Positions 4,814 to 22,013 of a stretch of 64,000 bases of DNA are shown here, piece by piece; the first letter of the stretch is position 1; every line of letters starts with the position of its first letter. The stretch is from the NCBI GenBank assembly GCA_021325435.1, contig JAJPHE010000115.1, positions 62,001-126,000 of the forward strand, in the 5' to 3' direction. This DNA is from Actinomycetota bacterium (GTDB lineage Bacteria; Actinomycetota; Acidimicrobiia; Acidimicrobiales; JAJPHE01). The position numbers and the translations under genes were made by a program. Below the pieces are notes generated by a model, which was not told where the DNA came from, did not search any database, and worked only from the letters and a program-made list of their open reading frames with translations.

Positions 4814-5653
4814 GTGATCGTCGCCGACCTCGACCACGTGGCGCTGGCCGCCGAGCGCCAGGACCACCTCTGGCCCCGGTACGCCGGCGACCTGGGCGGG
4901 CGCTGGCACGGCGCCGGCGACAGCCCCGGCTTCGACTCGGCCCAGCTGCTTTACGCCAACGGGATGAAGGTGGAGACCCTCGAGCCCCACCGGGTGGCCG
5001 AGAACGACTTCCTACGCCGCTTCCTGGACCGCAACGGCCCGGGGCCCCACCACCTCACCTTCAAGGTGCCCGATATCGAGGCGGCCCTCGCCGAGGTGGA
5101 GCGGGCCGGGTTCACTCCGGTGGGGGTGAACCTGGCCGACCCGGGGTGGATGGAGGCGTTCCTCCATCCGCGGGAGGTGCCCGGGGTGGTGGTGCAGCTG
5201 GCCCAGTCCTCGGGCGAAGGCGGGTGGTGGTCGGACCCGCCGGCCTCGCTGCCACCGCCGCGCCCTTCCGGACCGGCGACGCTCGTCCACGCCGCCCACT
5301 CCGTCGCATCCCTCGACATCGGCCTGCGGCTGTTCGCCGACGTGCTCGGCGGGGCCGAGGCGGGACGGGGCGAGGCCGGGGACGCCCGCTGGGTCGACCT
5401 CGACTGGCCGGGGGGAGGCCGGGTCCGGCTGCTCGCCCCCAACGGCGAGGGGCCGGTGGGCGACTGGCTCGGTGGGCGCCCCGGGCGGTTCCACCACTTG
5501 GCGTTCCGGGGCCCCGACCCCGCCGGCATCCCCGGGGCCAAGCCCACCGCCGGGGACCAGTGGGTCATCGAACCCGACGACAATCTCGGCACCCGCCTCG
5601 TCCTTTTGGCTGCGTCCGGGGGAGGCGAAGACCCGGCAGGTTCGAACCGGTAG
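4814..5653 (+). CDS. two-domain VOC family protein (glyoxalase/dioxygenase fold)
   Basis: This 279-residue protein has two vicinal oxygen chelate modules. The first begins VADLDHVALAAE and continues through HHLTFKVPDIEAALAEV (about residues 75-95). The second begins around residue 158 (LVHAAHSVASLDIGLRLF) and contains RFHHLAFRG. Conserved His and Glu residues at module edges suggest metal binding as in methylmalonyl-CoA epimerase or glyoxalase I, but the reaction cannot be assigned. Start is GTG at 4814, 66 bp from the divergently transcribed amidase. It ends 17 bp before the alkyl-DHAP-synthase-like gene, so the two are probably one transcript. Confidence 0.8.
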   Translation: MIVADLDHVALAAERQDHLWPRYAGDLGGRWHGAGDSPGFDSAQLLYANGMKVETLEPHRVAENDFLRRFLDRNGPGPHHLTFKVPDIEAALAEVERAGFTPVGVNLADPGWMEAFLHPREVPGVVVQLAQSSGEGGWWSDPPASLPPPRPSGPATLVHAAHSVASLDIGLRLFADVLGGAEAGRGEAGDARWVDLDWPGGGRVRLLAPNGEGPVGDWLGGRPGRFHHLAFRGPDPAGIPGAKPTAGDQWVIEPDDNLGTRLVLLAASGGGEDPAGSNR

Positions 5654-5670: not shown

Positions 5671-7290
5671 GTGCCCGACAGGCGCCGTTCTTGGTGGGGC
5701 TGGGGCTGGGAGGGCGAAGGCCCCGACCGTCGCCAGAAGGAAGCGATCGCCGCCGGGCTGGCCGCCCGCTTCGGGCTGGCCGAGCTGGCCGTGGCCGAGC
5801 CCGCCCGCCTCGAGGATCTCGACCTGCCCCGCCCCCGGGTGGAGCCCCCGGAATCGATCTCCCGCTACTGCTCGTCGGGGGTGTACGAGCGGGCGTCGCA
5901 CAGCTACGGCAAGTCGTTCCGCGACGTGGTGCGGGGCTTCCGGGGCCAGATGGACCACCCGCCCGACGTGGTGGCCTTTCCGGCCGACGAGGCCGAGCTG
6001 GTGTCCGTCCTGGACTGGGCGACCGGCGCCGGCGCGGCGGTGGTCCCCTACGGCGGCGGCTCTTCGGTGGTGGGAGGGGTCGAGTGCGACCCCGGCGACC
6101 GCTACGCCGGCGTGGTGTGTGTCGACCTAGGCCGCCTCGACCGGGTGCTCGAGGTGGACCGGGTGTCGCGGGCCGCCCGCATCCAAGGAGGAGTGCTGGG
6201 TCCCTCGCTGGAGGAGCAGCTGCGGCCCCACGGCCTGACCCTGCGCCACTTCCCCCAGTCCTTCGAGTTCTCGTCGCTCGGAGGTTGGCTGGCGACCCGC
6301 TCGGGCGGCCACTACGCCACCGCCCACACCCACATCGACGACTTCGTCGAGTCGATCCGCATGGTCACCCCGGCCGGAGTCCTCGAGTCGCGCCGTCTGC
6401 CCGGCTCCGGCGCCGGGCCCTCCCCCGACCGGCTGGCCCTGGGCTCGGAGGGAACCCTCGGCGTCATAACCGAGGCGTGGATGCGCCTGCAGGACCGTCC
6501 CCGCTACCGCTCCTCGGCGGGGGTGCGCTTCACCGACTACGGCGACGCCGTCGCCGCCACCCGCCAGGTGGTGCAGGCCGGGCTGCGACCGGCCAACTGC
6601 CGGCTGCTCGACGACGCCGAGGCGGCGTTGTCGGCCGGGTCGGGCGGCGGCGTCCACCTCCTGGTCCTCGGGTTCGAGTCCGCCGACCACCCGGTCGATG
6701 GGCCCATGACCCGGGCGGTGGAGATCTGCGCCGCCCACGGCGGCCAGGTGCCCGACGGGGTGCGCACCAGCGGGCCCGACCAGGAGTCCTCCGAGGCCGG
6801 CCGCCAGGGCGCCGTGGGCGCGTGGCGCAACGCGTTCATCCGGGCCCCCTACTCCCGCGACGCGCTGGTGGCCATGTCGATGATCGTCGAGACGTTCGAG
6901 ACCGCCTGCACGTGGGACGCATTCGATGACCTCCACGCCGGAGTCATCTCGACCGTGGAGAAGGCCGTGCGCGAGGTGTGCGGCGCCGGCACCGTCACCT
7001 GCCGGTTCACCCACGTCTACCCCGACGGCCCCGCCCCCTACTTCAGCGTCATGGGGCCGGGCCGGCGTGGATCCGAGGTGAGCCAATGGGACGAGATCAA
7101 GGCGGCGGCGGCGGACGCGGTCCTCTCCCACGGCGGCACCATCACCCACCATCACGCCGTCGGGCGCGATCACCGGCCCTGGTACGACCAGCAGCGGCCC
7201 CGGTTGTTCGCCGAGGCACTGAAGGCGGCCAAGTCCGTCCTCGATCCCGCCGGGGTGATGAACCCCGGCGTCCTGGTCGACCCCAGCTGA
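5671..7290 (+). CDS. FAD-linked oxidase, alkyldihydroxyacetonephosphate synthase-like (AGPS family)
   Basis: This 539-residue flavoprotein belongs to the vanillyl-alcohol-oxidase/AGPS superfamily. The N-terminal FAD domain carries the phosphate-binding loop PYGGGSSVVGG at about 127-137 and the SLGGWLATRSGGHYA segment at about 202-216. The C-terminal substrate domain has RFTHVYPDG and the hallmark GGTITHHHAVGRDH; the triple His at about 493-495 matches the active-site histidines of eukaryotic AGPS. That enzyme replaces the acyl chain of acyl-DHAP by a fatty alcohol, making the ether bond of ether lipids. Mycobacteria have homologues annotated AgpS. Downstream genes encode a fatty acyl-CoA reductase and an acyltransferase, which fits such a role. 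A different oxidase of this family remains possible. Confidence 0.85.
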   Translation: MPDRRRSWWGWGWEGEGPDRRQKEAIAAGLAARFGLAELAVAEPARLEDLDLPRPRVEPPESISRYCSSGVYERASHSYGKSFRDVVRGFRGQMDHPPDVVAFPADEAELVSVLDWATGAGAAVVPYGGGSSVVGGVECDPGDRYAGVVCVDLGRLDRVLEVDRVSRAARIQGGVLGPSLEEQLRPHGLTLRHFPQSFEFSSLGGWLATRSGGHYATAHTHIDDFVESIRMVTPAGVLESRRLPGSGAGPSPDRLALGSEGTLGVITEAWMRLQDRPRYRSSAGVRFTDYGDAVAATRQVVQAGLRPANCRLLDDAEAALSAGSGGGVHLLVLGFESADHPVDGPMTRAVEICAAHGGQVPDGVRTSGPDQESSEAGRQGAVGAWRNAFIRAPYSRDALVAMSMIVETFETACTWDAFDDLHAGVISTVEKAVREVCGAGTVTCRFTHVYPDGPAPYFSVMGPGRRGSEVSQWDEIKAAAADAVLSHGGTITHHHAVGRDHRPWYDQQRPRLFAEALKAAKSVLDPAGVMNPGVLVDPS

Positions 7291-7335
7291 CCCGGCCGAG
7301 GACGGAAGCCAGGCGACGGCCGATAGGGTTGGGTC

Positions 7336-7902
7336 GTGGTCGACTCCCGCGCTGGCGCCAACCGCGGCGCCACCAAGGGCAAGTCGCCTGGGCGGCTCAT
7401 GGAGCGAAACGAGCGGTTGGCGACGCTGGCCGCCGCCGTGCTCAGCGTGGCCGCCGGAGTCGGGTTCCTCGCCGCCTTCCTGGTCGGCCACCACCGCGGC
7501 CACACCAGTGGCACCGCCGTCGCCGTCTACACCGCGGGGGACTTCGTCTTCGCCGGCATCCTCGCCTGGGCGGCGCGGGCCGGCAACCGCTTCGCCACCG
7601 GGATGATCGCCGTCGTCGGCGGCTTCCTCCTGTGGGGCAGCACCGCCATCTCCTTCCCCTACCTCGCCCTGGCCGCCTGGCTGCTGGTCCGCAACTCTCG
7701 GGCCATGCGGGCCCAGCGCGACGCCGAGCGGGCGGCGGCGCCGGCGCGCCCCCGGCCGGCGCCCGCGGAGAAGCGAGCCGGCGGGTGGTTCAGCCGCCGC
7801 AAGCGCTCGGCCGACACCGGCCCCGGAGGGGTTCGACGGCCTCCGCCGTCGAAGCGTTACACCCCGCCGCGCCCGCCGGCCAAGGGCGGTCGGAAACGCT
7901 GA
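7336..7902 (+). CDS. hypothetical membrane protein with basic C-terminal tail
   Basis: I do not recognise a family for this 188-residue protein. Residues about 27-50 (LATLAAAVLSVAAGVGFLAA), 58-82 and 88-118 are hydrophobic and could form three or four transmembrane segments. The last 65 residues are rich in Arg, Lys, Pro and Ala and should be cytoplasmic. Start is GTG at 7336. It lies 45 bp after the AGPS-like gene and 76 bp before the reductase on the same strand, so it may belong to the same transcription unit. It has no catalytic motif and could be a membrane partner for the lipid enzymes, but that is only inferred from position. Confidence 0.7.
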   Translation: MVDSRAGANRGATKGKSPGRLMERNERLATLAAAVLSVAAGVGFLAAFLVGHHRGHTSGTAVAVYTAGDFVFAGILAWAARAGNRFATGMIAVVGGFLLWGSTAISFPYLALAAWLLVRNSRAMRAQRDAERAAAPARPRPAPAEKRAGGWFSRRKRSADTGPGGVRRPPPSKRYTPPRPPAKGGRKR

Positions 7903-7978
7903 GGGCCGGCATCCTGCCCCGGCCCCACCGCGGTCGGCATGGTCGACCGCGCCGGCAGGCGGATGGTAGAGAGAGGCG

Positions 7979-10309
7979 GTGATCAGAGAGGCCCTGGCCG
8001 GCGGGCGCGTCGGCGTCACCGGCGCCACCGGCTTCCTCGGCACCGCTCTGGTGGAGCGCATCCTCCGCTCCGTCCCCGAATGTGAGGTGGCGGTCGTGGT
8101 CCGGTCGGGCCGGCGGACCGGGGCGGCCGAACGGGTCAGGCGAGAGCTCATCCGCAACGACTGCTTCGACCGCCTGCGGGCCGAGCTCGGCGACCGCTTC
8201 GACGCCGAGGTGGCCCGCCGCCTGCACGTGGTCGAAGGCGACGTCGGCACCGACGGCCTCGGGTTGAGCGACGAGGGGCGAGAGGTGCTGGCCGGTTGCC
8301 GCACCGTCGTCCACTCCGCCGCCACCGTCAGCTTCGACGCTCCGCTCGACACGGCCGTCGAGGTGAACATGCTGGGGCCGTCGCGGGTGGCGGCGGTCAT
8401 GGCCGCCCAGGACGGGCACGCCCCGCATCTGGTGGCGGTCTCGACCGCCTACGTCGCCGGCGGTCGCCGGGGCGACGCCCCCGAGAAGCTGCTGCCCGAC
8501 ACCCCCTTCGCCACCGAGGTCCCCTGGCGCGACGAGGTGAGCGCCGCCCGCCGGGTGCGGGCCGACCTCGAGGCGGAAAGCCGCACCCCGGCCCGGCTGG
8601 CCAAGTTCCACAAGCAGGCCCGGGCCGACCTCGGCGCGGCCGGGGCCCCGCTCCTTTCGGACCGAGCCGAGCGCTACCGCCAGGAGTGGGTGTCCGAGCA
8701 GCTGGTGGAGGCGGGCCGGGCCCGGGCCGTCTCGCTCGGCTGGCCCGACGCCTACGCCTACACCAAGGCCCTCGGCGAGCGGGCCCTGCTCGAGAACCGC
8801 GGACCGGTGCCGGTGACGATCGTGCGGCCCTCGATCATCGAGTCGGCCCTGAGCGAGCCCCGCCCCGGTTGGATCCGCGGCTTCCGCATGGCCGAGCCGG
8901 TGATCATCTCCTATGCCCGGGGCTTGCTTCAGGCCTTCCCCGGAGCCCCCGAGGGCGTGGTCGACGTCATACCGGTCGATCTGGTGGTCGCCGCCATCCT
9001 GGCGGCCGCCGCCGCCGGGCCCGACCCGTCCGGGGCCAGCGTGTACCAGGTCGCCTCCGGCGCCGAGAACCCGCTCTACTACCGCACCCTCGTCAACCTC
9101 GTTCAGTCCTACTTCACCGAGAACCCGCTCTACGACGCCGACGGCCAGCCCATCGTCGTGCCCGAGTGGTCGTTCCCCGGGCGGGGGCGGGTCGAGCGCC
9201 AGCTGCAGCGGGCCGATCGGGCCCTGTCCGGGGCGGAGAAGATGATCCGCTCCCTGCCGGTGCGGGGGCGCCAGGCCCGGTGGACCGCCACCCTCGAAGA
9301 GCGCCGCACCCAGGTGGACCGGGCCCTCGGCTACGTGAAGCTGTACGGCGCCTATACCGAGACCGAGGCGCGCTTCCGCGTCGACCGCCTCCTCGACCTG
9401 TGGGGACGGCTGGAGCCGGCCGAGCGCGACGCCTTCTGCTTCGACCCCCGGGTGGTGGACTGGCCTCGGTACGTGCAGGAGGTCCACCTGCCGTCGATCG
9501 TCACCCACGCCCGGGTGCGCACCGTCCCGGGCCGGCGGACCGGCCCCGACCGCCACGAGCGGGGGCGACGGGCCATCCTGTCGCCCGACCGCCACCTCGC
9601 CACCTTCGACCTCGAGAACACCCTGGTCGCCTCCAACGTGGTCGAGTCCTACTCCTGGCTGGCGACCCGCGACCTCGACGACGCCGACCGGGTGCGCTTC
9701 ACCGCCCGGGTGCTGCGCCAGGCGCCGGGGTTGCTGGCCCTCGACCGACGCGACCGCGGCGACTTCTTGCGCCATTTCTACCGCCGCTACCGCGAGGCCG
9801 ATGCCGGGCAGCTGCGCGAGGACGCGGTCGAGCTGTTCCACTCGTTGCTGCTGGCCAAGTCGTTCCCGGCCGGGATCCGCCGCGTCCGCCAGCACCGGGC
9901 CCTGGGGCACCGCACCCTCCTCATCACCGGCGCCCTCGACCTAGTGGTGGAGCCGTTCCGCCCTCTGTTCGACGACATCGTCTGTGCCCGGATGTCAGAG
10001 CGCGGCGGCCGCCTGACCGGGGAGCTCGACCAGCCCCCTCCGACCGGGGAGGCCCGGGCCCTGGTAATGGCCGACTACGCCGCTGCCGAGGGCCTCGAGC
10101 TGGAGCAGTCGGTGGCCTACGCCGACTCGGCCAGCGACCTGCCGATGCTCGAGGCCGTCGGTCATCCGGTGGCGGTCAACCCCGAGGTCAAGCTGGCCAC
10201 CATCGCCCGGCGGCGGGGCTGGCACACCGAGGTCTGGGAGAAGGCCCCCGGCTACGCGCCCCCCCTGCTTCCCCTCGCCCCCCGCCTGGCCGCCCGGAGG
10301 GCGCGGTGA
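7979..10309 (+). CDS. fatty acyl-CoA reductase-like SDR fused to HAD-IB domain
   Basis: This is a 776-residue fusion. Residues 1 to about 500 form an extended short-chain dehydrogenase of the male-sterility/fatty acyl-CoA reductase type. The dinucleotide motif is GVTGATGFLGTAL (12-24), with Ser155 in VAVSTAYVAG and the YxxxK pair Tyr259/Lys263 (DAYAYTKALGER). Such enzymes reduce acyl-CoA to aldehyde or alcohol. From about residue 537 a HAD-IB domain follows (HLATFDLENTLVASN, LLITGALD, YADSASDLPMLEAVG), like the HAD part of PlsC or SerB fusions. Motif I reads DLENT, so the usual second Asp is Glu, which may weaken phosphatase activity. The stop overlaps the next start by 4 nt (GTGA), showing translational coupling with the alcohol dehydrogenase gene. 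Confidence 0.87.
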   Translation: MIREALAGGRVGVTGATGFLGTALVERILRSVPECEVAVVVRSGRRTGAAERVRRELIRNDCFDRLRAELGDRFDAEVARRLHVVEGDVGTDGLGLSDEGREVLAGCRTVVHSAATVSFDAPLDTAVEVNMLGPSRVAAVMAAQDGHAPHLVAVSTAYVAGGRRGDAPEKLLPDTPFATEVPWRDEVSAARRVRADLEAESRTPARLAKFHKQARADLGAAGAPLLSDRAERYRQEWVSEQLVEAGRARAVSLGWPDAYAYTKALGERALLENRGPVPVTIVRPSIIESALSEPRPGWIRGFRMAEPVIISYARGLLQAFPGAPEGVVDVIPVDLVVAAILAAAAAGPDPSGASVYQVASGAENPLYYRTLVNLVQSYFTENPLYDADGQPIVVPEWSFPGRGRVERQLQRADRALSGAEKMIRSLPVRGRQARWTATLEERRTQVDRALGYVKLYGAYTETEARFRVDRLLDLWGRLEPAERDAFCFDPRVVDWPRYVQEVHLPSIVTHARVRTVPGRRTGPDRHERGRRAILSPDRHLATFDLENTLVASNVVESYSWLATRDLDDADRVRFTARVLRQAPGLLALDRRDRGDFLRHFYRRYREADAGQLREDAVELFHSLLLAKSFPAGIRRVRQHRALGHRTLLITGALDLVVEPFRPLFDDIVCARMSERGGRLTGELDQPPPTGEARALVMADYAAAEGLELEQSVAYADSASDLPMLEAVGHPVAVNPEVKLATIARRRGWHTEVWEKAPGYAPPLLPLAPRLAARRAR

Positions 10310-11520
10310 AGGCGCTGGTGTTCGAGCGGTCCTTGCCCCGCTACGCCGCCGCCCGGGTGGCGAGCTCGTGGGTGCCTGGAGGTGGGGCCCGGGTCGGACC
10401 GCTGCGGCTGGCCCAGGAGGAGGACCCGGCTCTGCCCGGACCGGAGTGGCGCCGGGTGTCCCCCATCCTGGCGGGCATCTGCGGGTCCGACCTTTCGACG
10501 GTGGACGGACGGAGCTCGCGCTACTTCGAGCCCATCGTCAGCTTTCCGTTCGTACCCGGCCACGAGGTCGTCGGCCGGCTGATAGGCGGCCCCGACGACG
10601 GAGCCCGGGTGGTGCTGGAGCCGGTGCTCGGATGCGCGGCCCGCGGCCTCGAGCCCCCCTGCGCCGGCTGTGCGTCGGGTAGCACCGGCGCCTGCGAGCG
10701 GGTGGCGTTCGGCCACATCAAGCCGGGGCTGCAGACCGGCTTCTGCGCCGACACCGGCGGGGGGTGGTCCACCTCGCTGGTCGCCCATCCGTCCCAGCTC
10801 CATCCGGTGCCCGACGGCCTCGGCGACGACCACGCCGTCGTGGTCGAGCCGGCCGCCTGCGCCGTCCACGCCGCCCTGGCATCGGGAGACGTCGAAGGGG
10901 CCACGGTGGCGGTCGTTGGCGCCGGCACCCTCGGGCTCCTCGTCGTCGCCGCCCTGCGCCACTTCTGCCTCCCCGGCGCCATCATCGCCGCGGCCAAGCA
11001 CCCCCACCAACGACGCCTCGCCACCGAGCTGGGGGCCGACCACGTGGTCGAGCCCGCCGGCCTGGCCCGGGCCGTGCGGCGCCACACCCGCGCCATGGCC
11101 GTCGGCGACGGGCTGTCCGGGGGGGCCGACGTGGTGCTGGACTGCGTGGGCAGCGCCGACTCCATCGCCGAGGCGCTGGCTGTCGTCCGCCCCCGGGGCC
11201 GGGTCGTGATGGTCGGCATGCCCGGTGTCACCCGGGTCGACCTGACGCCGCTGTGGCACCGCGAGACCCAGCTGGTCGGCGCCTACGCCTACGGGGTGGA
11301 GACCCCGCCCGGCCGCCCCGGGCCGGTGCGCACCTTCGAGCTCGCCTTCGAGCTGGTGCAGGAGGCCGACCTGGGCCGACTGGTGTCGGCCCGCTATCCC
11401 CTCGACCGTTACGCCGACGCCATCGCCCACGCCGGCGCCGCCGGCCGGCGGGGCGCGGTGAAAGTGGTGTTCGACCTGCAGCACGAGTCACGCCGACCGA
11501 CCTGGAGGACCGCGTCATGA
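10306..11520 (+). CDS. zinc-dependent alcohol dehydrogenase (MDR family)
   Basis: This 404-residue medium-chain dehydrogenase has the catalytic-zinc motif around ICGSDLS (Cys and Asp) and PGHEVVG. A Cys-rich stretch (LGCAARGLEPPCAGCASGST) resembles the structural zinc lobe. The Rossmann motif is AVVGAGTLGLLVVAAL. The start is GTG at 10306, overlapping the reductase stop by 4 nt. The ATG of the next gene overlaps its own stop by 4 nt. It probably interconverts an alcohol and an aldehyde or ketone using NAD(P). In this operon it could handle the fatty aldehyde/alcohol made by the upstream reductase, or reduce a ketone on a glycerol backbone. Neither is proven by sequence. Confidence 0.87.
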   Translation: MKALVFERSLPRYAAARVASSWVPGGGARVGPLRLAQEEDPALPGPEWRRVSPILAGICGSDLSTVDGRSSRYFEPIVSFPFVPGHEVVGRLIGGPDDGARVVLEPVLGCAARGLEPPCAGCASGSTGACERVAFGHIKPGLQTGFCADTGGGWSTSLVAHPSQLHPVPDGLGDDHAVVVEPAACAVHAALASGDVEGATVAVVGAGTLGLLVVAALRHFCLPGAIIAAAKHPHQRRLATELGADHVVEPAGLARAVRRHTRAMAVGDGLSGGADVVLDCVGSADSIAEALAVVRPRGRVVMVGMPGVTRVDLTPLWHRETQLVGAYAYGVETPPGRPGPVRTFELAFELVQEADLGRLVSARYPLDRYADAIAHAGAAGRRGAVKVVFDLQHESRRPTWRTAS

Positions 11521-13103
11521 GCCCCCGACCAGGCTTCGTGCTGGAGGTGGACCGCTCCACGCCGGCCACCCTGATGTGGCACGGGGAGGGCTACCGGCTG
11601 GAGCGCCTGCCGACCGGGGCCAGGGTCGTCTACCCGCCCGAGCCGCTGGAGCCCCTCGCCGACCCGCGTGGGGCGATCCGCCACGTCCTCGAGAACCCGG
11701 TCGACAGCGCACCTCTCTCCGCCCTCCTGCGCCCCGGCATGCGGCTCACCATCGCCTTCGACGACGTGTCACTGCCCCTGCCGCCCATGCGCCGCCCCGA
11801 CATCCGCCAGCAGATCATCGAAGCCGTTCTCGACGCCGCCGCTGCCGCCGGGGTCGACGACGTCGTTCTGGTCGCCGCCCTGGCCCTGCACCGGCGCATG
11901 ACCGAGCCGGAGCTGCGCCACGCCCTGGGCAACCGCGTCTACGACTCCTTCGCCCCCCACGGGCTGCTGACCCAGCACGACGCCGAGGACCCGGACAACC
12001 TCATCCATCTGGGGGTGACCGACGCCGGCGAGGACGTAGAGCTGAACAAGCGGGCGGCCACCAGCGACCTGCTGGTCTACGTCAACATCAACCTGGTGGC
12101 CATGGACGGCGGCCACAAGAGCGTGGCGACCGGCCTGGCCAGCTACCGGTCGCTGCGCCACCACCACAACGTGCGGACCATGCTGCACTCCCGCTCGTTC
12201 ATGGACCAGCACCGCTCGGAGCTGCACTCCTCCAACTGGAGGATGGGTCGGCTGATCGCCGAGTCCGGCGTCAAGGTCTTCCAGATCGAGACGACCGTCA
12301 ACACCGACACGTTCCCCGAGCAGTTCAGCTTCCTCTCCAAGCGCGAGTGGGAGTGGTCCGCCCGCGACCGGGTCGGCTTCCTCGCCACTTCGAGCGCGCT
12401 GGCCCGCACGCCCGACCGGGTGCGCCGCCAGATCTTCCACTCGATGCGCTCCCCGATCGGGCTCACCAGCGTCCAGGCCGGGGAGGTGGAGGCGGTGCAC
12501 GCCCTCACGACCGAGAACGTCTACCGCCAGCAGCTCGTCGAGGTCGACGGTCAGTCGGACGTGCTGACCATGGGGCTCCCCTATATCTGCCCCTACAACG
12601 TCAACTCGATCATGAACCCCATCCTCGTCATGTGCCTGGGGCTCGGCTACTTCTTCAACCTCTACCGGGGCCGTCCCCTCGTGCGCCAAGGCGGGGTGCT
12701 GATCATGTCCCACCCCACCCCGTGGGCCTTCGACCCCGTCTTCCACCCGAGCTACATCGACTTCTTCGAGCAGGTGCTGGCCGAGACGACCGACCCGCTC
12801 GAGATCGAGGCCAAGTACGAGCAGTCGTTCGCCACCGACCCGTGGTACATCCACCTGTACCGCACGGGCCACGCCTACCACGGCGTGCACCCGTTCTACA
12901 TGTGGTACTGGGGGGCGCACGCCCTCGACCATCTCGGCCGGGTGATCGTCGTGGGTGGCGACCCGGCCGCCGTGCGCCGGCTCGGCTTCAAGTCGGCCTC
13001 GAGCATGGCCGACGCCCTGGAGATGGCCGAGGACGTCGTGGGCCGCGACCCGTCCATCACCCATCTGCACGCCCCCCCGCTGCTGATGGCGGACGTGCGT
13101 TGA
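11517..13103 (+). CDS. LarA-like (DUF2088) protein
   Basis: This 528-residue protein shares the lactate-racemase N-terminal domain (DUF2088). Recognisable pieces are FDDVSLPLPPM (81-91), a helix and strand leading to ALALHRRMTEPEL (His125), and MDGGHKSVATG, in which Lys201 aligns with the LarA lysine that anchors the nickel-pincer nucleotide. An HHH cluster follows at about 218-220. Beyond residue 300 it is longer than usual LarA and includes hydrophobic NPILVMCLGLGYFFNLYRG. LarA-type enzymes racemise or epimerise 2-hydroxyacids and sugars. The substrate here is unknown. The cofactor genes larB, larC and larE are not in the window. ATGA overlap with the dehydrogenase and TTGA overlap with the acyltransferase place it firmly in the operon. 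Confidence 0.78.
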   Translation: MSPRPGFVLEVDRSTPATLMWHGEGYRLERLPTGARVVYPPEPLEPLADPRGAIRHVLENPVDSAPLSALLRPGMRLTIAFDDVSLPLPPMRRPDIRQQIIEAVLDAAAAAGVDDVVLVAALALHRRMTEPELRHALGNRVYDSFAPHGLLTQHDAEDPDNLIHLGVTDAGEDVELNKRAATSDLLVYVNINLVAMDGGHKSVATGLASYRSLRHHHNVRTMLHSRSFMDQHRSELHSSNWRMGRLIAESGVKVFQIETTVNTDTFPEQFSFLSKREWEWSARDRVGFLATSSALARTPDRVRRQIFHSMRSPIGLTSVQAGEVEAVHALTTENVYRQQLVEVDGQSDVLTMGLPYICPYNVNSIMNPILVMCLGLGYFFNLYRGRPLVRQGGVLIMSHPTPWAFDPVFHPSYIDFFEQVLAETTDPLEIEAKYEQSFATDPWYIHLYRTGHAYHGVHPFYMWYWGAHALDHLGRVIVVGGDPAAVRRLGFKSASSMADALEMAEDVVGRDPSITHLHAPPLLMADVR

Positions 13104-14068
13104 GACGCATCCGCATCGGGGAGCGCACGCTGGACCTCGACCGTCTCCGGCCCCGGCCGGCGTCGTTCCCTTGGGGGTCGCCCACCCACCCGGGTGGGGT
13201 GGACGTCCCCGAGGAGGAGCGACGGACCGGGGTCGACTACGACACGGCCTGGTCGCGCCGTTACCCCACCCGGGTCGCCCGGGCCTTCTTCCTCGAGGGG
13301 GTCACCCGGCCCTTGGTCCACGCCGTCATCCCCCCCAATGTGGTGGGCCTCGACCTCCTCGACGGCCTCGAGCCGCCGGTCATCTTCGCCGCCAACCACG
13401 CCAGCCACCTCGACACGCCCCTGGTGCTGTCCACCTTGCCCCGCCGCTTCCGGCACCGGGCCGTGGTCGCCGCCGCCGCCGACTATTTCTTCGACACCCG
13501 CTGGAAGGGCGCGGTGTGGTCGTTCGCCCTGGCCGCCATACCCATGGAGCGCACCCGGGTCAGCCGCCGCTCCGCCGACCTGGCGGCCGAGCTCATCGGG
13601 GACGGGTGGAGCCTCGTGATCTACCCCGAAGGGGGCCGCACCCCCGACGGGTGGGCCCAGCCGTTCCACGGCGGCGCCGCCTACCTGTCGGTCCGCACCG
13701 GGGCCCCGCTGGTGCCGGTGCACATCGCCGGCACCCGCCGGGCCCTGGGGCGCGGCGCCCGCCGCCTGCGTCCCGGCCCCACCCGGGTGACGTTCGGTCG
13801 ACCGCTGACCGCCGGCCCGGGGGAGGACGCCCGCCGCCTCGCCGGCCGCCTGGAAGCCGAGGTCGCCGCCCTGGCCGACGAGGGGCGCACCGACTGGTGG
13901 CAGGCCCGTCAGCGGGCCGCGGCCGGGCACACCCCTCCCCTGGCCGGCCCTGACGCCGCCCCGTGGCGGCGGACGTGGGCGCTCGGCCCGGCAACCGACA
14001 CCGAGCGGCGGCGCTGGCCCGAGCTTGGCCGCGCCGACGCCGAACGCAGCCGGCGCCGCCGGGACTGA
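13100..14068 (+). CDS. PlsC-like 1-acyl-glycerol-3-phosphate acyltransferase
   Basis: This protein of about 322 residues has lysophospholipid acyltransferase motifs. The HX4D catalytic motif is NHASHLD (His100, Asp105). A second block, IPMERTRVSRRS, fits the glycerophosphate-binding motif, and YPEGGRTPDG fits motif III. The family moves acyl chains from acyl-CoA or acyl-ACP to glycerolipid hydroxyls. I chose the TTG at 13100 because it overlaps the upstream stop (TTGA) like the other junctions of this operon. A GTG at about 13199 is an alternative. With the AGPS-like enzyme and fatty acyl-CoA reductase upstream, a role in acylating DHAP or an alkyl-glycerophosphate is plausible. The C-terminal 60 residues are basic and poorly conserved in appearance. 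Confidence 0.85.
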   Translation: MRRIRIGERTLDLDRLRPRPASFPWGSPTHPGGVDVPEEERRTGVDYDTAWSRRYPTRVARAFFLEGVTRPLVHAVIPPNVVGLDLLDGLEPPVIFAANHASHLDTPLVLSTLPRRFRHRAVVAAAADYFFDTRWKGAVWSFALAAIPMERTRVSRRSADLAAELIGDGWSLVIYPEGGRTPDGWAQPFHGGAAYLSVRTGAPLVPVHIAGTRRALGRGARRLRPGPTRVTFGRPLTAGPGEDARRLAGRLEAEVAALADEGRTDWWQARQRAAAGHTPPLAGPDAAPWRRTWALGPATDTERRRWPELGRADAERSRRRRD

Positions 14069-14079
14069 GTGATGGGGGG

Positions 14080-15351
14080 CTAGAAGGCGCCGGTGCCGTT
14101 AGGGGTGCCGAGGCCGGTGGGGCCGTCGTAGCCCACGCCCGCGGTGCAGAGGTCACTGACCGTACAGGTGCCGTTCGAACCCGAGGTGACGTCGTTCAGG
14201 CTCGACGCGTGAGAGTACGGGTACGAGCTGGTGATGCTGGCGGCGTTGCCGGCCAGGGCGTACACCGAGGCGACGATGGGCGAGGCAACGCTGGTGCCGC
14301 CGAACACAAGCCAGCCGCTGGCCCCGTAGGTGTCGTAGACGGCGACGCCGGTGCTCGGATCGGCCTCGGCGGACACGTCGGCCACCGCCCGGTTTGGGCA
14401 CCCCGTTGCAGTCTGCCCCAAGCCGTTCGGCTCGTAGGCCGAACATCCGCTCCCCGCCCCCGACCACGCCGACTCGCTCCACCCCCTACTGCTGGCGCTG
14501 TCCGGGCGGAGGGTGGTGCCGCCGACGGCAGTCACGTACGGCGACGCCGCCGGATACTCCACTCCGTAGCCGTTGTCCCCGGAGCTAACTGTCACCGCTA
14601 CGCCGGGGTGGTCGTAGTAGGAGTCGTAGCTGGTCTCGCTGGAGGACTCCGGTCCGCCGTAGCTGTTCGACACGGCGTTGGCCTTCAAGGCGACGGCCGT
14701 GTTCACGGCGGTGCCCAGGTTGGTGTAGCTGGGGGAGCTCGCCTCCACGAGGAGGATGTTGCAGTTCGGACAGATGGCCGAGACCATGTCCAGGTCGAGG
14801 GAGATCTCTTGGGCCCAGCTGCTGTTGCCCCGTGGAGTGCTTGTCCCGCCGCTCTGGTTGACCTTGCGGAACCACGGCCCGGTGGCGGTCGAGCTCCACT
14901 TACTCAGAAGCGGAATGGCCGTGGCGCCGACGTGGCCCCGGTAAATGTTGACGTCGTTGAAGGCGTAGGGGTCGTCGTAGGCGTCGACGATCGCCACCGT
15001 CTGGCGGACCCCACCGACGAACCCTCCGGTCGAGGAGATGCTGGCGAGGTTGTAGGCCGACTGGAGGTCAGCCGGCCTGTAGCCGCTGGTCGGCGCAGTT
15101 GCCGTCGTCGTTCCGCTGTGCCCGTCAGAGCCGACGTGGCTGCCCCGCCAGTTGTGGGCCGGATCGAGCAGCTGGATGGCGCCGCACGCCGCCTCCCCGG
15201 GCGCAGGTGCAGCACAGGAGTGCGCCTGATCCGACTGGGCGCTCGGTCCGCCGCTGGGGGCGGCGACAGCTGTTCCGCCCACTCCCAGCGACCCAGCCAG
15301 ACCGACGCACGCGATGAGACTCGTAATGGCAGATTTCCGCATGCCCCGCAA
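14080..15351 (-). CDS. secreted sedolisin-type serine peptidase (S53)
   Basis: This 423-residue protein has an N-terminal signal peptide (basic start, hydrophobic 9-27, cleavage likely after AVA near residue 30). The body matches family S53: Glu182 and Asp186 in SSWAQEISLDLDMV, the oxyanion Asp259 in SSGDNGYG, and nucleophile Ser354 in FGGTSVASP. The C-terminus GYDGPTGLGTPNGTGAF resembles the calcium-binding end of these enzymes. Sedolisins are acid-acting endopeptidases. Only about 60 residues separate the signal peptide from the catalytic fold, so the usual large activation prodomain seems missing. It converges with the acyltransferase gene, 11 bp apart. Confidence 0.88.
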   Translation of the reverse strand: MRGMRKSAITSLIACVGLAGSLGVGGTAVAAPSGGPSAQSDQAHSCAAPAPGEAACGAIQLLDPAHNWRGSHVGSDGHSGTTTATAPTSGYRPADLQSAYNLASISSTGGFVGGVRQTVAIVDAYDDPYAFNDVNIYRGHVGATAIPLLSKWSSTATGPWFRKVNQSGGTSTPRGNSSWAQEISLDLDMVSAICPNCNILLVEASSPSYTNLGTAVNTAVALKANAVSNSYGGPESSSETSYDSYYDHPGVAVTVSSGDNGYGVEYPAASPYVTAVGGTTLRPDSASSRGWSESAWSGAGSGCSAYEPNGLGQTATGCPNRAVADVSAEADPSTGVAVYDTYGASGWLVFGGTSVASPIVASVYALAGNAASITSSYPYSHASSLNDVTSGSNGTCTVSDLCTAGVGYDGPTGLGTPNGTGAF

Positions 15352-15429: not shown

Positions 15430-16170
15430 CTATTCCACCAGCCGCAACCCCGAGGGGGCCATGGACGGCTCGGGCGAGGCCAGCTCGACCACGAACTCGG
15501 TGCGATGGGCCGGAAAGACGTGCTCGGCCACGAGCACAGCCGACCCGTCAGCGGCCCGGGTCACCCGCTCGCAGCGCAGCACCGGGGAGCCCTCCGGCAC
15601 GCCCAGGTCGGCGGCGTCGCGGGCGCTGGCGGCCGCCGCCCCGATCGTCTGGGTGGCCCCGCCCAGGGGGACGTCGAGCAGCTCGTAGAAGGTGTGACGC
15701 TCAACGTCGTCACGGGAGAACGACGAGCCCAGGGCGGCAGGCAACCAGACGGTCACCCGGGCGAAGGGAGTCCCGTCCGCCAGGTTCACCCGGCGGACCT
15801 GAAGGACTTCGATCCGCTCGGCCGGCCCCAGGAGACGGGCGACCCAGTCCGGAGCGGGCACGAAGCGGAAGTCGACCACCTTTCGGCCCGGTTCCATCCC
15901 GGATTCGGACAGCTGCTCCTCGATCGTGCCGAGACGGCCCAGGCCCTGGCGAAGCGGGCGCACGGAGGCGAACCAGCCGAACCCCTGGCGCGAGTCGACC
16001 AGCCCTTCGGCCTTCAGGTGCTCGAGGGCCTTGCGGACCGTGATCCGGCTCACCCCGTAGGCTCGGGAGAGCTCCGCCTCACTGGGTAGGACCCCACCGG
16101 CGGACACCTCGCCCGCCTCAATTTGGGCCCGCAGCTCCGCGGCCACCGCCAAGTAGCGCACCTGTCTCAC
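15430..16170 (-). CDS. GntR family transcriptional regulator with UTRA domain
   Basis: This 246-residue HutC-subfamily regulator has a winged helix at about residues 5-70 ([20 protein letters not shown] is the recognition region). Residues 95-240 form a UTRA effector-binding domain. The GTG start at 16170 directly abuts an imperfect palindrome at 16171-16192, between this gene and the divergent aconitase gene. It is therefore likely to autoregulate and to control the aconitase gene. HutC-type proteins bind small metabolites in UTRA; the ligand here is unknown, but a tricarboxylate or a compound feeding the TCA cycle would fit. No Shine-Dalgarno is apparent, so a leaderless message is possible. 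Confidence 0.88.
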
Positions 16171-16192
16171 TTGTCATATACTTGTATCACAA
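16171..16192. promoter_or_regulatory. Putative GntR operator overlapping aconitase promoter
   Basis: The 22-bp interval matches its reverse complement at 16 of 22 positions, with arms TTGT and ACAA, as for GntR/HutC sites. It contains TATACT (16177-16182), a good -10 element for rightward transcription of aconitase. Repressor binding would cover the promoter of both divergent genes. No clear -35 is visible. Confidence 0.55.
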
Positions 16193-16220
16193 TGCTTGGC
16201 CCGACGGAAGGAGACCTCCC

Positions 16221-18506
16221 ATGGCGACGGTCACCCCCACCACCCCCCTGGAGCTAATCGACAAGGTCTACGGGAGCCTCACCGAGCGGGTGGCGATCGG
16301 CCGCCGGCGCCTGGGCCGCCCCCTCACCCTGGCCGAGAAGATCCTCTTCAACCACCTGGCCGACCCCGAGCACCAGGAGCTCGAGCGGGGCCGTAGCTAT
16401 GCCGAGCTCTACCCCGACCGGGTAGCCATGCAGGACGCCACCGCCCAGATGGCCCTCCTGCAGTTCATGACCGCCGGGCTGGCCCGGGTGGCGGTGCCGA
16501 CAACAGTCCATTGCGACCACCTCATCCAGGCTCGGGTGGGAGCCAAGGAGGACCTCGCCGTCGCCGAGGACGTGAACGCCGAGGTCTACCAATTCCTGCG
16601 TAGCGCGTCCGAGCGTTACGGCATCGGCTTCTGGAAGCCGGGCTCGGGCATCATCCACCAGGTCGTGCTGGAGCAGTACGCCTTCCCCGGCGGCATGATC
16701 ATCGGCACCGACAGCCACACTCCGAACGCCGGGGGCCTGGCCATGATCGCCGTCGGGGTCGGCGGGGCCGACGCCGTCGACGTGATGGTGGGCGGCACCT
16801 TCGGCGTGCGATGGCCGAAGCTGATCGGGGTGCGCCTGACCGGGTCGCTGTCCGGGTGGACGGCGCCCAAGGACATCATCCTCAAGGTCGCCGAGATCCT
16901 CACCGTGAAGGGCGGCACCGGCGCCATCGTCGAGTACTTCGGCCCGGGCGCCGACAGCATCAGCGGCACCGGCAAGGCGACCATCTGCAACATGGGCGCG
17001 GAGATCGGCGCCACCTGCTCCCTGTTCCCCTACGACGACCACTCGGGGCGCTACCTCAAGGCCACCGGGCGCGAGGCGTTCGCCGACCGGGCGGACCGGG
17101 TCATCGAGGACCTCCGGGCCGACTCCGAGGTCGACTCAGACCCCGAGCGCTTCTTCGACCGGGTCATCGAGATCGACCTGTCCGCCCTCGAGCCCCACAT
17201 CGTCGGCCCCCACACTCCGGATCTGGCCCGCCCCGTGTCGGCCATGGGCTCCGAAGCCCGCGAGAAGGGCTGGCCGGTGGAGCTGACCAACTGCCTGGTC
17301 GGCTCGTGCACCAACTCCTCCTACGAGGACATCACCCGGGCGGCCAGCGTGGCCCGGCAGGCCTCGGCCCGGGGGCTGCGGGCCCGGGTTCCCCTCCTCG
17401 TCACGCCGGGGTCCGAGCGGGTGCGAGCCACCATCGAACGAGACGGGCTGCTGGCCGACCTCGAGGCCATCGGTGCGACGGTTCTCGCCAACGCCTGCGG
17501 TCCCTGCATCGGCCAGTGGAAGCGCGACGACATCGCCGAGGGCGAGGCCAACTCCATCCTGACGTCGTACAACCGCAACTTCCCCAAGCGAAACGACGGC
17601 AACGCCGCCACCCTCGCCTTCATGGGGTCGCCGGAGATCGTGGTGGCCTACGCCCTAACCGGCACGCTCGACTTCAACCCCCTGACCGACGGGGTGGACG
17701 GCGTCCTGCTGGAGCCGCCGGTGGGCGAAGAGTTGCCCTCGCGGGGGTTCGAGAGTGGGGACGCCGGCTATGTGGCTCCCCCCGAGGACGGCAGCCAGGT
17801 GGAGGTGGTGGTTCATCCGAGCAGCACCCGGCTGCAGCTGCTCGAGCCCTTCTCGCCCAGCCCGGAGGCGGCGCTCACCGAACTGCCGATCCTGCTCAAG
17901 GCCCAGGGCAAGTGCACCACCGACCACATCTCGGCGGCGGGCCCGTGGCTTCGTTACCGCGGCCACCTCGACAACATCTCGTCCAACCTCTTCCTCGGCG
18001 CGGTCAACGCCTTCACCGGCGAGGCCGGCGCCGGACGCTGCCCAGTGCACGGCCAGATTGAGCCCTACCCCGACTGCGCCCGGCACTGCCGCGAGGCGGG
18101 AGTCAGCTGGGTGGCGGTCGGCGACGAGAACTACGGCGAAGGGTCTTCCCGTGAGCACGCGGCCATGGAGCCCCGGTTCATGGGGTGCCGGGCCATCTTC
18201 GCCCGCTCCTTCGCCCGCATCCACGAGACCAACTTGAAGAAGCAGGGCGTGCTCGCTCTGACGTTCTCCGACCCCGCCACCTACGACCAGATCGGGGAGG
18301 AGGACCGCATCTCCATCCTCGGGCTGGACGGGCTGGCCCCGGACCGACCCGTCGAGTGCCGGATCACCAAGCCGGACGGGACCACCGTCGACTTCACCGC
18401 CACCCACACCATGTCCGAGGAGCACATCGCCTGGTATCGGGCCGGCTCGGCCCTCAACCTCATCCGCGAGAAGACCGCGCCGAGCCCGCGCCGTCACCGG
18501 GGCTGA
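16221..18506 (+). CDS. aconitate hydratase
   Basis: This 761-residue enzyme interconverts citrate and isocitrate through cis-aconitate in the TCA cycle. Its order of motifs follows mitochondrial-type aconitase. The DSHTPNAGG segment comes early. The [4Fe-4S] ligand cysteines occur as [10 protein letters not shown] and then [10 protein letters not shown]. The swivel domain carries [19 protein letters not shown], with the active-site Ser, and then [14 protein letters not shown]. The ATG at 16221 follows AAGGAGA at 16207-16213. An upstream in-frame ATG at 16182 lies inside the promoter and is rejected. It is divergent from a GntR regulator, whereas many actinobacteria place a TetR-type AcnR next to acn. 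A short hairpin overlaps its stop codon. Confidence 0.95.
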
Positions 18507-20627: not shown

Positions 20628-22013
20628 TCAGGCCTCGACCGGATGGGCGGGCGGGGTGGCCAGCTCGATCTGGCGGGCGGTGGGCCGGCGCCGCCGGCGG
20701 GCCTCGGGCGGCAGCAGGGCGACGATCGCCGCCATGATCCGCTCGGTGTCGGCGTGGGGCTCGTCGTGGGCCAGCTGCGCCGGCTTTCCCACCCGCACCT
20801 GAACCGTCGGCGGGTTGACGATCTGGTGGACGCGGGGGAGCCGCTCCCGCCGGGGCCAGACCAGCTCGGTGCCCCACAACCCGATCGGCACCACGGGCGC
20901 CCCGGTGAGGGCGGCCAGCCGGGCCGCCCCGGTCTTGCCCTTGAGCTCGGGGTCGAAGAACTGCCGGCCGCGGGGGATGGTGCCCTGCGGCAGCACGGCC
21001 ACCAGCTCTCCGGCTTCGAGGGCGACCTGCGCCTCGCGCAGCGGCTGGTCCGACCCGGTCCCCCGCTCGACCCGGATGCCTCCGGCGGCGCGGGCCAGGG
21101 AGCCGACCACCGGCGCGTCGAAGACCTCCTTCTTGCCGAGGAACCGCAGCTTGCGCCCGGCGCCCAGCACGGTGAGCCCGATGGCGGCGGGGTCGAAGTA
21201 GCTCCGGTGGTTGGCGACGATGATGGCAGGGCCCTCGGCGGGGATGTTCTCCCGCCCGGAGATGTCGAAGCGGGCGTAGGGGAACATGGCCGGGTGCGAC
21301 AGCCACTGCACCACGTCCATCGGCTCGATGCCGGCCAGCTTGGGCACGCCGGGTGGGGCGTCGAGGTTCATGACCGGCCACCGTCGCACCACGGCGACGG
21401 CGAGCAGGCGGGGATCCGGGTTGACGGCGACCGGATGGCCGACCGAGCTGAGCAGGGGCACATCGAAGACACTGTCCGAGTAGGCGTAGCTGGCCGACAG
21501 GTCGACCTGGCGGGACTCGGACCAGCGCCTGACCGCAGCCAGCTTCCCCGTGGCCCACACGAACTCCCCCTCGAGGGAGCCGGTGTAGGCGCCGTCTCGC
21601 TCGGCGTAGCGGGTGGCCACGATGTCGTCGAAACCGAGGCGCTCGGCCAGCGGCGCCACCAGGTCGACCGGCGTGGTGGTGGCCAGCACGGTCAGGTGGC
21701 CGGACTCGCGGTGGCGGCGGAGCAGGGGCCGAGCGTAGGGGGCGACGATGGCGTCGAGCTCCTCCGCCGCCTCCTTGCCGGCCTGGCGCACGGTGTCGGC
21801 CGGCCATCCCTTGGCGAACAGGGCGGCGGCCCGAGCCAGCGCCATGGAGGGCAGTGACTCCCCCACCACGTCGTAGAGCCGGTAGAGCAACCGGCCCGAC
21901 CGGGCCCGGCGGCCGTCCACCACCCCGGCGGCGGCAAGGGCCTCGCTGATCAGCGGACCACTGGCCCGGCGCAGGACTGTGCGGTCAAGGTCGAAGAACG
22001 CAGCGACGGCCAC
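20628..22013 (-). CDS. Bifunctional HAD-IB phosphatase / 1-acylglycerol-3-phosphate acyltransferase
   Basis: This 461-residue fusion resembles the mycobacterial PlsC-type proteins. The N-terminal HAD-IB domain (1 to about 215) has intact motif I FFDLDRTVL, motif II TVLATTTP and motif IV YSDSVFDVPLLSSVG. The C-terminal acyltransferase has the HX4D motif NHRSYFD and the motif III element PQGTIPRGRQFF. The likely role is acylation at glycerol sn-2 to make phosphatidic acid; the HAD domain may dephosphorylate an intermediate. It is 26 bp upstream of murT on the same strand and probably co-transcribed with murT-gatD. In contrast to the HAD domain at 7979-10309, both motif I aspartates are conserved. 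Confidence 0.9.
   Translation of the reverse strand: MAVAAFFDLDRTVLRRASGPLISEALAAAGVVDGRRARSGRLLYRLYDVVGESLPSMALARAAALFAKGWPADTVRQAGKEAAEELDAIVAPYARPLLRRHRESGHLTVLATTTPVDLVAPLAERLGFDDIVATRYAERDGAYTGSLEGEFVWATGKLAAVRRWSESRQVDLSASYAYSDSVFDVPLLSSVGHPVAVNPDPRLLAVAVVRRWPVMNLDAPPGVPKLAGIEPMDVVQWLSHPAMFPYARFDISGRENIPAEGPAIIVANHRSYFDPAAIGLTVLGAGRKLRFLGKKEVFDAPVVGSLARAAGGIRVERGTGSDQPLREAQVALEAGELVAVLPQGTIPRGRQFFDPELKGKTGAARLAALTGAPVVPIGLWGTELVWPRRERLPRVHQIVNPPTVQVRVGKPAQLAHDEPHADTERIMAAIVALLPPEARRRRRPTARQIELATPPAHPVEA

Follow-up and report, generated by a model that had tools for sequence, protein, structure and literature searches.

A conserved actinobacterial operon linking a fatty acyl-CoA reductase, a LarA homologue and a PlsC-like acyltransferase: a candidate nickel-pincer step in lipid synthesis

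Known ether-lipid and LarA systems and the locus under study

A described counterpart of the locus considered here is the elb operon of Myxococcus xanthus, which serves the formation of ether lipids under aerobic conditions and combines a fatty acyl-CoA reductase (FAR) domain, a HAD protein, an AGPAT-like domain and a dehydrogenase-type protein. In this bacterium, ElbD accounts for most ether-lipid formation and alkylglycerone-phosphate synthase (AGPS) has a minor share (PMC9131029). Other bacteria arrive at such lipids through the Ger/PlsA ester-to-ether reductase. Here, we describe an operon from a 64,000-nucleotide stretch (hereafter, the window) of the 4.0-Mb genome of an Actinomycetota bacterium of the order Acidimicrobiales (contig JAJPHE010000115.1, positions 62,001 to 126,000). 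Its core genes code for a FAR fused to a HAD-IB phosphatase-like domain (FAR-HAD), a zinc-dependent alcohol dehydrogenase (ADH), a homologue of LarA and a PlsC-like acyltransferase, and an AGPS orthologue lies upstream of them.

The LarA homologue brings a second set of described systems into the comparison. It is a full-length member of the LarAH14/15/16 family (NF052592; cut-off 740 bits), one member of which, LarAH14 of Frankia, proved inactive on every hydroxyacid substrate tested; for the LarA groups lacking the residues H174 and K298, catalysis of some other hydride-mediated reaction has been suggested (PMC7583248). A further relative, LarA_Sp, is a single-His enzyme whose substrate has not been established (PMC12611868).

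We propose that the operon contributes a step dependent on the nickel-pincer nucleotide (NPN) to an aerobic pathway that makes fatty-alcohol- or ether-type glycerolipids independently of AGPS, a reading to which we give about an even chance of being right. The homologies of the encoded proteins, the conservation of the operon, the co-occurrence of LarA with its partners, the clustering of larE, larB and larC with the operon and the loss of racemase residues together establish a genetic module, whose components we consider below.

A four-gene unit co-inherited with larC

The conserved unit comprises FAR-HAD, ADH, LarA and PlsC, without AGPS. In 20 neighbourhoods from the same order, FAR-HAD, LarA and PlsC occur together in every case, ADH in 17 and AGPS in just one; thus, for the four core genes, the conservation of gene order in Acidimicrobiia, which a first-pass annotation made from the window's sequence had named as a check, is strong. 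The same picture emerges from 80 named loci, of which 51 have enough upstream and 72 enough downstream sequence: FAR and HAD each lie upstream of LarA in 51/51, ADH in 47/51, and PlsC lies downstream in 72/72, with AGPS present in two of the 80. The closest of these named LarA loci are mostly labelled Acidimicrobiales or Actinomycetota. Identical gene order recurs in other families of the phylum, where LarA identity is 62-67%, and homologous pairs of core genes are co-directional in all comparisons across loci (102/102, 109/109 and 106/106), their aligned ends lying a median of 35-56 bp apart. This arrangement exceeds chance. In the window, all five enzymes, the AGPS orthologue included, are on the plus strand and, as had been noted at first pass, the last four are coupled by 4-nt overlaps, namely GTGA (10306-10309), ATGA (11517-11520) and TTGA (13100-13103).

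The genes of this unit are also inherited together. The genome samples underlying the following counts include drafts, and the counts are uncorrected for relatedness apart from their spread over families. Among 76 genomes, FAR-HAD is found in 57/57 with LarA versus 0/19 without it. A second set of 40 genomes gives 3/3 versus 0/37, the 37 including some with weaker LarA paralogues; pooling both sets, FAR-HAD is present in all 60 genomes with a LarA of the LarAH14/15/16 type and in none of the 56 without one. LarC, which is needed for the NPN cofactor, is distributed likewise (54/57 versus 0/19 in the first set, the three LarA-positive genomes without it being drafts). Since the 19 LarA-negative genomes are spread over three families (f2, f5 and f9), each of which also has positive genera, LarA, FAR-HAD and LarC were jointly lost (or gained) at least three times. 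Moreover, in three loci (L086, L087 and L088) the operon runs on into larE, larB and larC, and in a fourth (L083) these three genes adjoin it, larE being encoded on the other strand. In the genome of the window, larC and larE are recovered with hidden Markov models and a larB-like open reading frame (ORF) directly precedes larC, so that the complete larB, larC and larE set to which the first-pass annotation had pointed is in place. Given this co-inheritance with FAR-HAD and LarC and the clustering with larE, larB and larC, LarA of the operon is almost certainly an NPN enzyme acting together with FAR-HAD.

LarA paralogues that fall short of the NF052592 cut-off, with scores of about 510-540 bits, are seen in genomes without FAR-HAD (L100:9401-10933, G310, G359, G457 and G525) and probably differ in function from the operon version. 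A search of plasmids for annotated LarA relatives gave one weak match from Rhizobium only.

As for FAR-HAD itself, the GxxGxxG, YxxxK and HAD motifs are kept in 30 orthologues, and the Sterile (male sterility C-terminal) domain is partial, at 33.0 bits versus a cut-off of 35.4. The HAD motif I (near residue 541 of the window protein) reads DLENT in 20/20 Acidimicrobiia, with the second Asp changed to Glu, and DxDGT in most other families. Pfam detects neither an AMP-binding nor an ACP domain in the core proteins.

The AGPS neighbour, the LarA active site and the surrounding genes

The flavoenzyme encoded upstream of the core genes appears, by its phylogeny and active site, to be a genuine AGPS. 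Its best PDB matches are the Dictyostelium and guinea-pig enzymes, with which it and 14 orthologues form a clade (support 100/99), and R419, R515, Y578 and the HHH motif (H615-H617) are kept in it and in 13 full-length orthologues; the HHH motif is at residues 493-495 of the window protein, where it had been placed at first pass. Thus, a grouping with other oxidases, which the first-pass annotation had weighed as a possible outcome, is not seen, and the tree and active site together rule out a generic oxidase. A second, wider AGPS-like family found in most Acidimicrobiia, with a member in the genome of the window itself (G000:C110:12654-13901), keeps R419, Y578 and HHH and is without R515.

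Such an enzyme would fit a eukaryote-like route of the kind favoured in the first-pass annotation: FAR would supply a fatty alcohol, PlsC would act as the dihydroxyacetone phosphate (DHAP) acyltransferase, AGPS would swap acyl for alkyl, ADH would reduce the resulting alkyl-DHAP and LarA would be a side player. The intact active site and the eukaryotic affinities of the AGPS orthologue favour this scheme, as does its position in six loci (the window, G079, G149, G114, L104 and L112), where it precedes FAR-HAD by 0.7-4.4 kb on the same strand. However, within the order AGPS is present in 10/41 genomes with the operon versus 4/19 without it (Fisher p = 1), and it is present in 0/7 Rubrobacteraceae, where the best score is 94 bits, whereas full-length orthologues reach about 450 or more; LarA, FAR-HAD and LarC are linked to one another far more tightly than to AGPS. 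Hence, the claim that AGPS is the ether-forming enzyme of the cluster finds no support, and we consider the eukaryote-like route rather unlikely. Because it lies upstream of FAR-HAD in some lineages and shows no genome-wide link to the operon, AGPS is best described as an accessory neighbour, its lack of association across genomes ruling it out as a core member.

The predicted structure of the window LarA (mean pLDDT 89.6) is, on the model, closest to LarA_Sp (9q3k; Z 39.5, root-mean-square deviation 2.4 over 453 residues) and matches LarA_Bw (9q3j) with Z 36.3, matches with Z < 8 having been disregarded. We compared 144 LarA sequences from the fetched loci, assigning sites through profile alignments. 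D83 (equivalent to D72), H125 (H108), K201 (K184, the NPN-linking Lys) and H217 (H200, the Ni-binding His) are invariant in all of them. The second catalytic His is gone, the H174 position being Asn in 143 sequences and Cys in one (the Asn is N190 or N192, given an alignment uncertainty of two residues, and both are conserved). The position of R75, which binds the carboxylate and the NPN phosphate, is Leu in 133, Ile in nine and Cys in two. As for the catalytic K298, K201 is the sole Lys conserved in at least 90% of the sequences and no Lys after it reaches that level, but the C-terminal domain aligns poorly with LarA_Lp.

These replacements at H174 and R75 and the apparent want of a conserved K298-like Lys make a plain hydroxyacid racemase unlikely on sequence grounds. 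A broader version of this idea, in which LarA would be an ordinary or one-way racemase inverting a stereocentre of the glycerol backbone or of a hydroxyacid head-group precursor, has in its favour that every LarA with known activity is a racemase or epimerase, that one-way racemization has been proposed for the single-His LarA_Sp (PMC12611868) and that the stereochemistry of Rubrobacter lipids is still undefined (PMC10821996). Set against the residues just listed and against the Frankia results and the other hydride-mediated reaction suggested for such groups (PMC7583248), it seems improbable to us. The inversion at the glycerol backbone suggested at first pass is weakened accordingly, while the assignment to NPN-type enzymes holds.

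The idea that LarA furnishes D-lactate to a D-Ala-D-Ala ligase (Ddl) homologue, with the lipid-gene neighbourhood incidental, can be set aside as having next to no likelihood. A Ddl-like gene does lie upstream in 14 Acidimicrobiia loci, but most of these have a divergent TetR gene between it and the operon. The window has no such Ddl gene, and in other families none was seen next to the operon. Further, LarA is without the lactate catalytic residues and co-occurs perfectly with FAR-HAD. This candidate was rejected on the placement of Ddl and the LarA residues.

The coordinates of the genes are collected in Table 1.

Table 1. Genes of the operon and its immediate upstream neighbours in the window
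Feature	Coordinates	Strand	Matches and remarks
VOC/glyoxalase-like protein	4814..5653	+	PF13669
AGPS orthologue (flavoenzyme; accessory neighbour)	5671..7290	+	PF01565, PF02913; PDB matches
Small membrane-protein-like ORF (188 aa) between AGPS and FAR-HAD	7336..7902	+	Pfam/NCBIfam scan without match
FAR-HAD (fatty acyl-CoA reductase + HAD-IB phosphatase-like domain), core gene	7979..10309	+	PF07993 (NAD_binding_4) 194 bits, PF12710 90 bits
Zinc-dependent medium-chain ADH, core gene, absent in some loci	10306..11520	+	PF08240/PF00107
LarA homologue, LarAH14/15/16 family, core gene	11517..13103	+	NCBIfam NF052592 905.7 bits
PlsC/AGPAT-like acyltransferase, core gene	13100..14068	+	PF01553 64 bits; NHASHLD and YPEGGR motifs in translation

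The VOC gene ends 17 bp before AGPS and is possibly co-transcribed with it; in the other loci compared, no VOC gene was found beside AGPS or the core operon. Likewise, the 188-aa ORF, which the first-pass annotation did not list, is not conserved: the other loci with AGPS gave no match to it at E<=1e-3. Directly downstream of the operon, a minus-strand ORF (14080-15351) has the look of a secreted sedolisin/subtilisin-type peptidase (GGTSVASP motif). Beyond it, an aconitase gene is divergent from one for a GntR-family regulator (15430-18506); the pair is near the operon in several Acidimicrobiia, probably as mere regional synteny. A separate HAD-PlsC fusion is encoded on the minus strand about 7 kb from the operon (20628-22013) and is near the operon in other loci too. 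A TetR-family gene is often found beside the operon, being divergent upstream of FAR-HAD in L041, L043, L044 and others and also adjoining it in L084, L089 and L090, with none seen beside it in the window; its product is a candidate regulator of the operon.

A candidate route to glycerolipids and its relation to known systems

The lineage that connects the operon to a lipid is the Rubrobacteraceae, identified as our family f67 by exact plasmid matches to R. radiotolerans and R. indicoceani. Their loci have the arrangement PlsY-FAR-HAD-ADH-(gap)-LarA, with a gene for a PlsY-like glycerol-3-phosphate acyltransferase directly before FAR-HAD in six of them (L091-L096). Sinninghe Damste 2023 reportedly puts forward an operon by which five Rubrobacter species would make 1-O-alkyl glycerol phosphate, and this PlsY-FAR-HAD-ADH arrangement is probably that operon; to our knowledge, neither a role for LarA or NPN nor conservation in Acidimicrobiia and other families is described there. 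The core lipids of Rubrobacterales are about 46% ether-linked, according to a published report (PMC10821996). A Ger/PlsA-type PF09989 protein was found in 0/7 Rubrobacteraceae, and in 0/23 of all genomes tested, the Thermotoga maritima control being positive. Some Rubrobacter (L216 and L217, none being listed for G334) have a second FAR-like protein, by sequence an NRPS-like adenylation-carrier-reductase with no apparent acyltransferase domain and, on that judgement, not an ElbD. Thus, the proposal made at first pass that the cluster makes alkyl-glycerol lipids gains from the ether-lipid richness of the operon-bearing Rubrobacterales, and its AGPS component finds no support.

The operon could instead make fatty alcohols or other alcohol lipids, such as wax-type esters, long-chain diol lipids or alkyl glycolipids, with LarA acting on a hydroxy-lipid, for example a 2-hydroxyacyl chain or a 1,2-diol. 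FAR and ADH would suit any fatty-alcohol product, and LarA-family chemistry targets carbons bearing hydroxyl groups (PMC7583248). Nevertheless, the constant presence of PlsC downstream of LarA in the named loci and of PlsY beside FAR-HAD in the six Rubrobacter loci points to glycerol phosphate, ether/ester glycerolipids dominate in Rubrobacter, and LarA has lost the carboxylate-binding Arg. We therefore regard this as an unlikely alternative.

Because its parts list resembles that of the elb operon, we place the operon in aerobic, AGPS-independent alkyl glycerolipid synthesis; the ether product we infer from one lineage and the logic of the pathway, and with it the order of steps and the reaction of LarA. 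In this proposed route, FAR would convert acyl-CoA into an aldehyde or alcohol. On the alkyl-glycerol intermediate that results, LarA would carry out a hydride transfer dependent on NPN, ADH and HAD would adjust the redox and phosphate state of this intermediate and PlsC would acylate the second glycerol position. The likeliest product would be a 1-O-alkyl-2-acyl (mixed ether/ester) glycerolipid, formed without AGPS. In a minority of lineages, that of the window included, AGPS has been added beside the operon and could use the same fatty alcohol.

A bolder and less probable variant, which we rate as unlikely, makes LarA itself an oxygen-tolerant, NPN-dependent ether-bond-forming enzyme rather than a racemase. 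Here, the fatty aldehyde from FAR and glycerol 3-phosphate would form a hemiacetal, in which the nickel-pincer cofactor would take a hydride from C2 of glycerol and pass it to C1 of the alkyl chain, so that a single redox-neutral step would yield 1-O-alkyl-DHAP and water; ADH would then reduce 1-O-alkyl-DHAP to alkyl-glycerol phosphate. Speculatively, such a C2-to-C1 shift would explain both the inseparability of FAR-HAD and LarA and the dispensable second His.

Several points weigh against the proposed glycerolipid route in general. The ether lipids of Rubrobacter match the operon in one lineage only, a literature search found no published lipid analysis of Acidimicrobiia, and Rubrobacter may encode an ether synthase of a radically different kind elsewhere in its genome. 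The gene content would look no different if the product were a fatty-alcohol derivative other than an ether lipid, the substrate of LarA might be a side metabolite and, where AGPS adjoins the operon, the core could merely feed fatty alcohol to it.

If the proposed glycerolipid route is correct, nickel-pincer chemistry would extend from hydroxyacid racemization to lipid synthesis, and, should the ether-bond variant hold, there would be both a new bacterial ether-lipid route and a first non-isomerase reaction of the NPN cofactor. For ether-lipid synthesis in aerobic bacteria without AGPS or Ger, the operon offers a concrete candidate pathway and a candidate substrate class. As Acidimicrobiia are common in soils and waters, the gene set could serve there to mark organisms that produce ether lipids. 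The papers searched yielded none on LarA with either ether lipids or a fatty acyl-CoA reductase. Inheritance of the set as a unit across several actinobacterial lineages, ether-lipid-rich Rubrobacter among them, points to a probable new role for LarA in making such lipids.

The comparison with known systems thus runs along two lines. On the side of LarA, the operon protein belongs to LarAH14/15/16, so far an orphan family without an assigned function, in which the member assayed was inactive on all substrates tried (PMC7583248) and which is now tied to lipid genes. With its closest fold relatives, LarA_Sp and LarA_Bw, it shares a single catalytic His and an Asn near the place of the second one, and it keeps the NPN Lys, the Ni-binding His and the Tyr307 and His401 equivalents. 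It differs in that identity is about 25%, in having Pro for His306 of LarA_Sp and Leu, Ile or Cys for Lys76, and in sitting among lipid genes, whereas the genes of LarA_Sp and LarA_Bw adjoin sugar genes. The covalent ligand of LarA_Sp adds 316.5 Da (PMC12611868), a mass near those of 1-O-hexadecylglycerol (316.53) and dihydroxystearate (316.48); this agreement may be a coincidence, as the mass is compatible with many formulas and Lactococcus lactis was the host in which the protein was produced. On the side of lipid synthesis, the neighbouring AGPS resembles the eukaryotic enzymes (EC 2.5.1.26) in clade and active site and differs in being optional in operon-bearing genomes. Finally, the elb operon is matched in its kinds of components and differs in their packaging: ElbD is a FAR-ACS-ACP-AGPAT fusion, whereas the window operon has a FAR-HAD fusion, a free-standing PlsC and, in addition, LarA.

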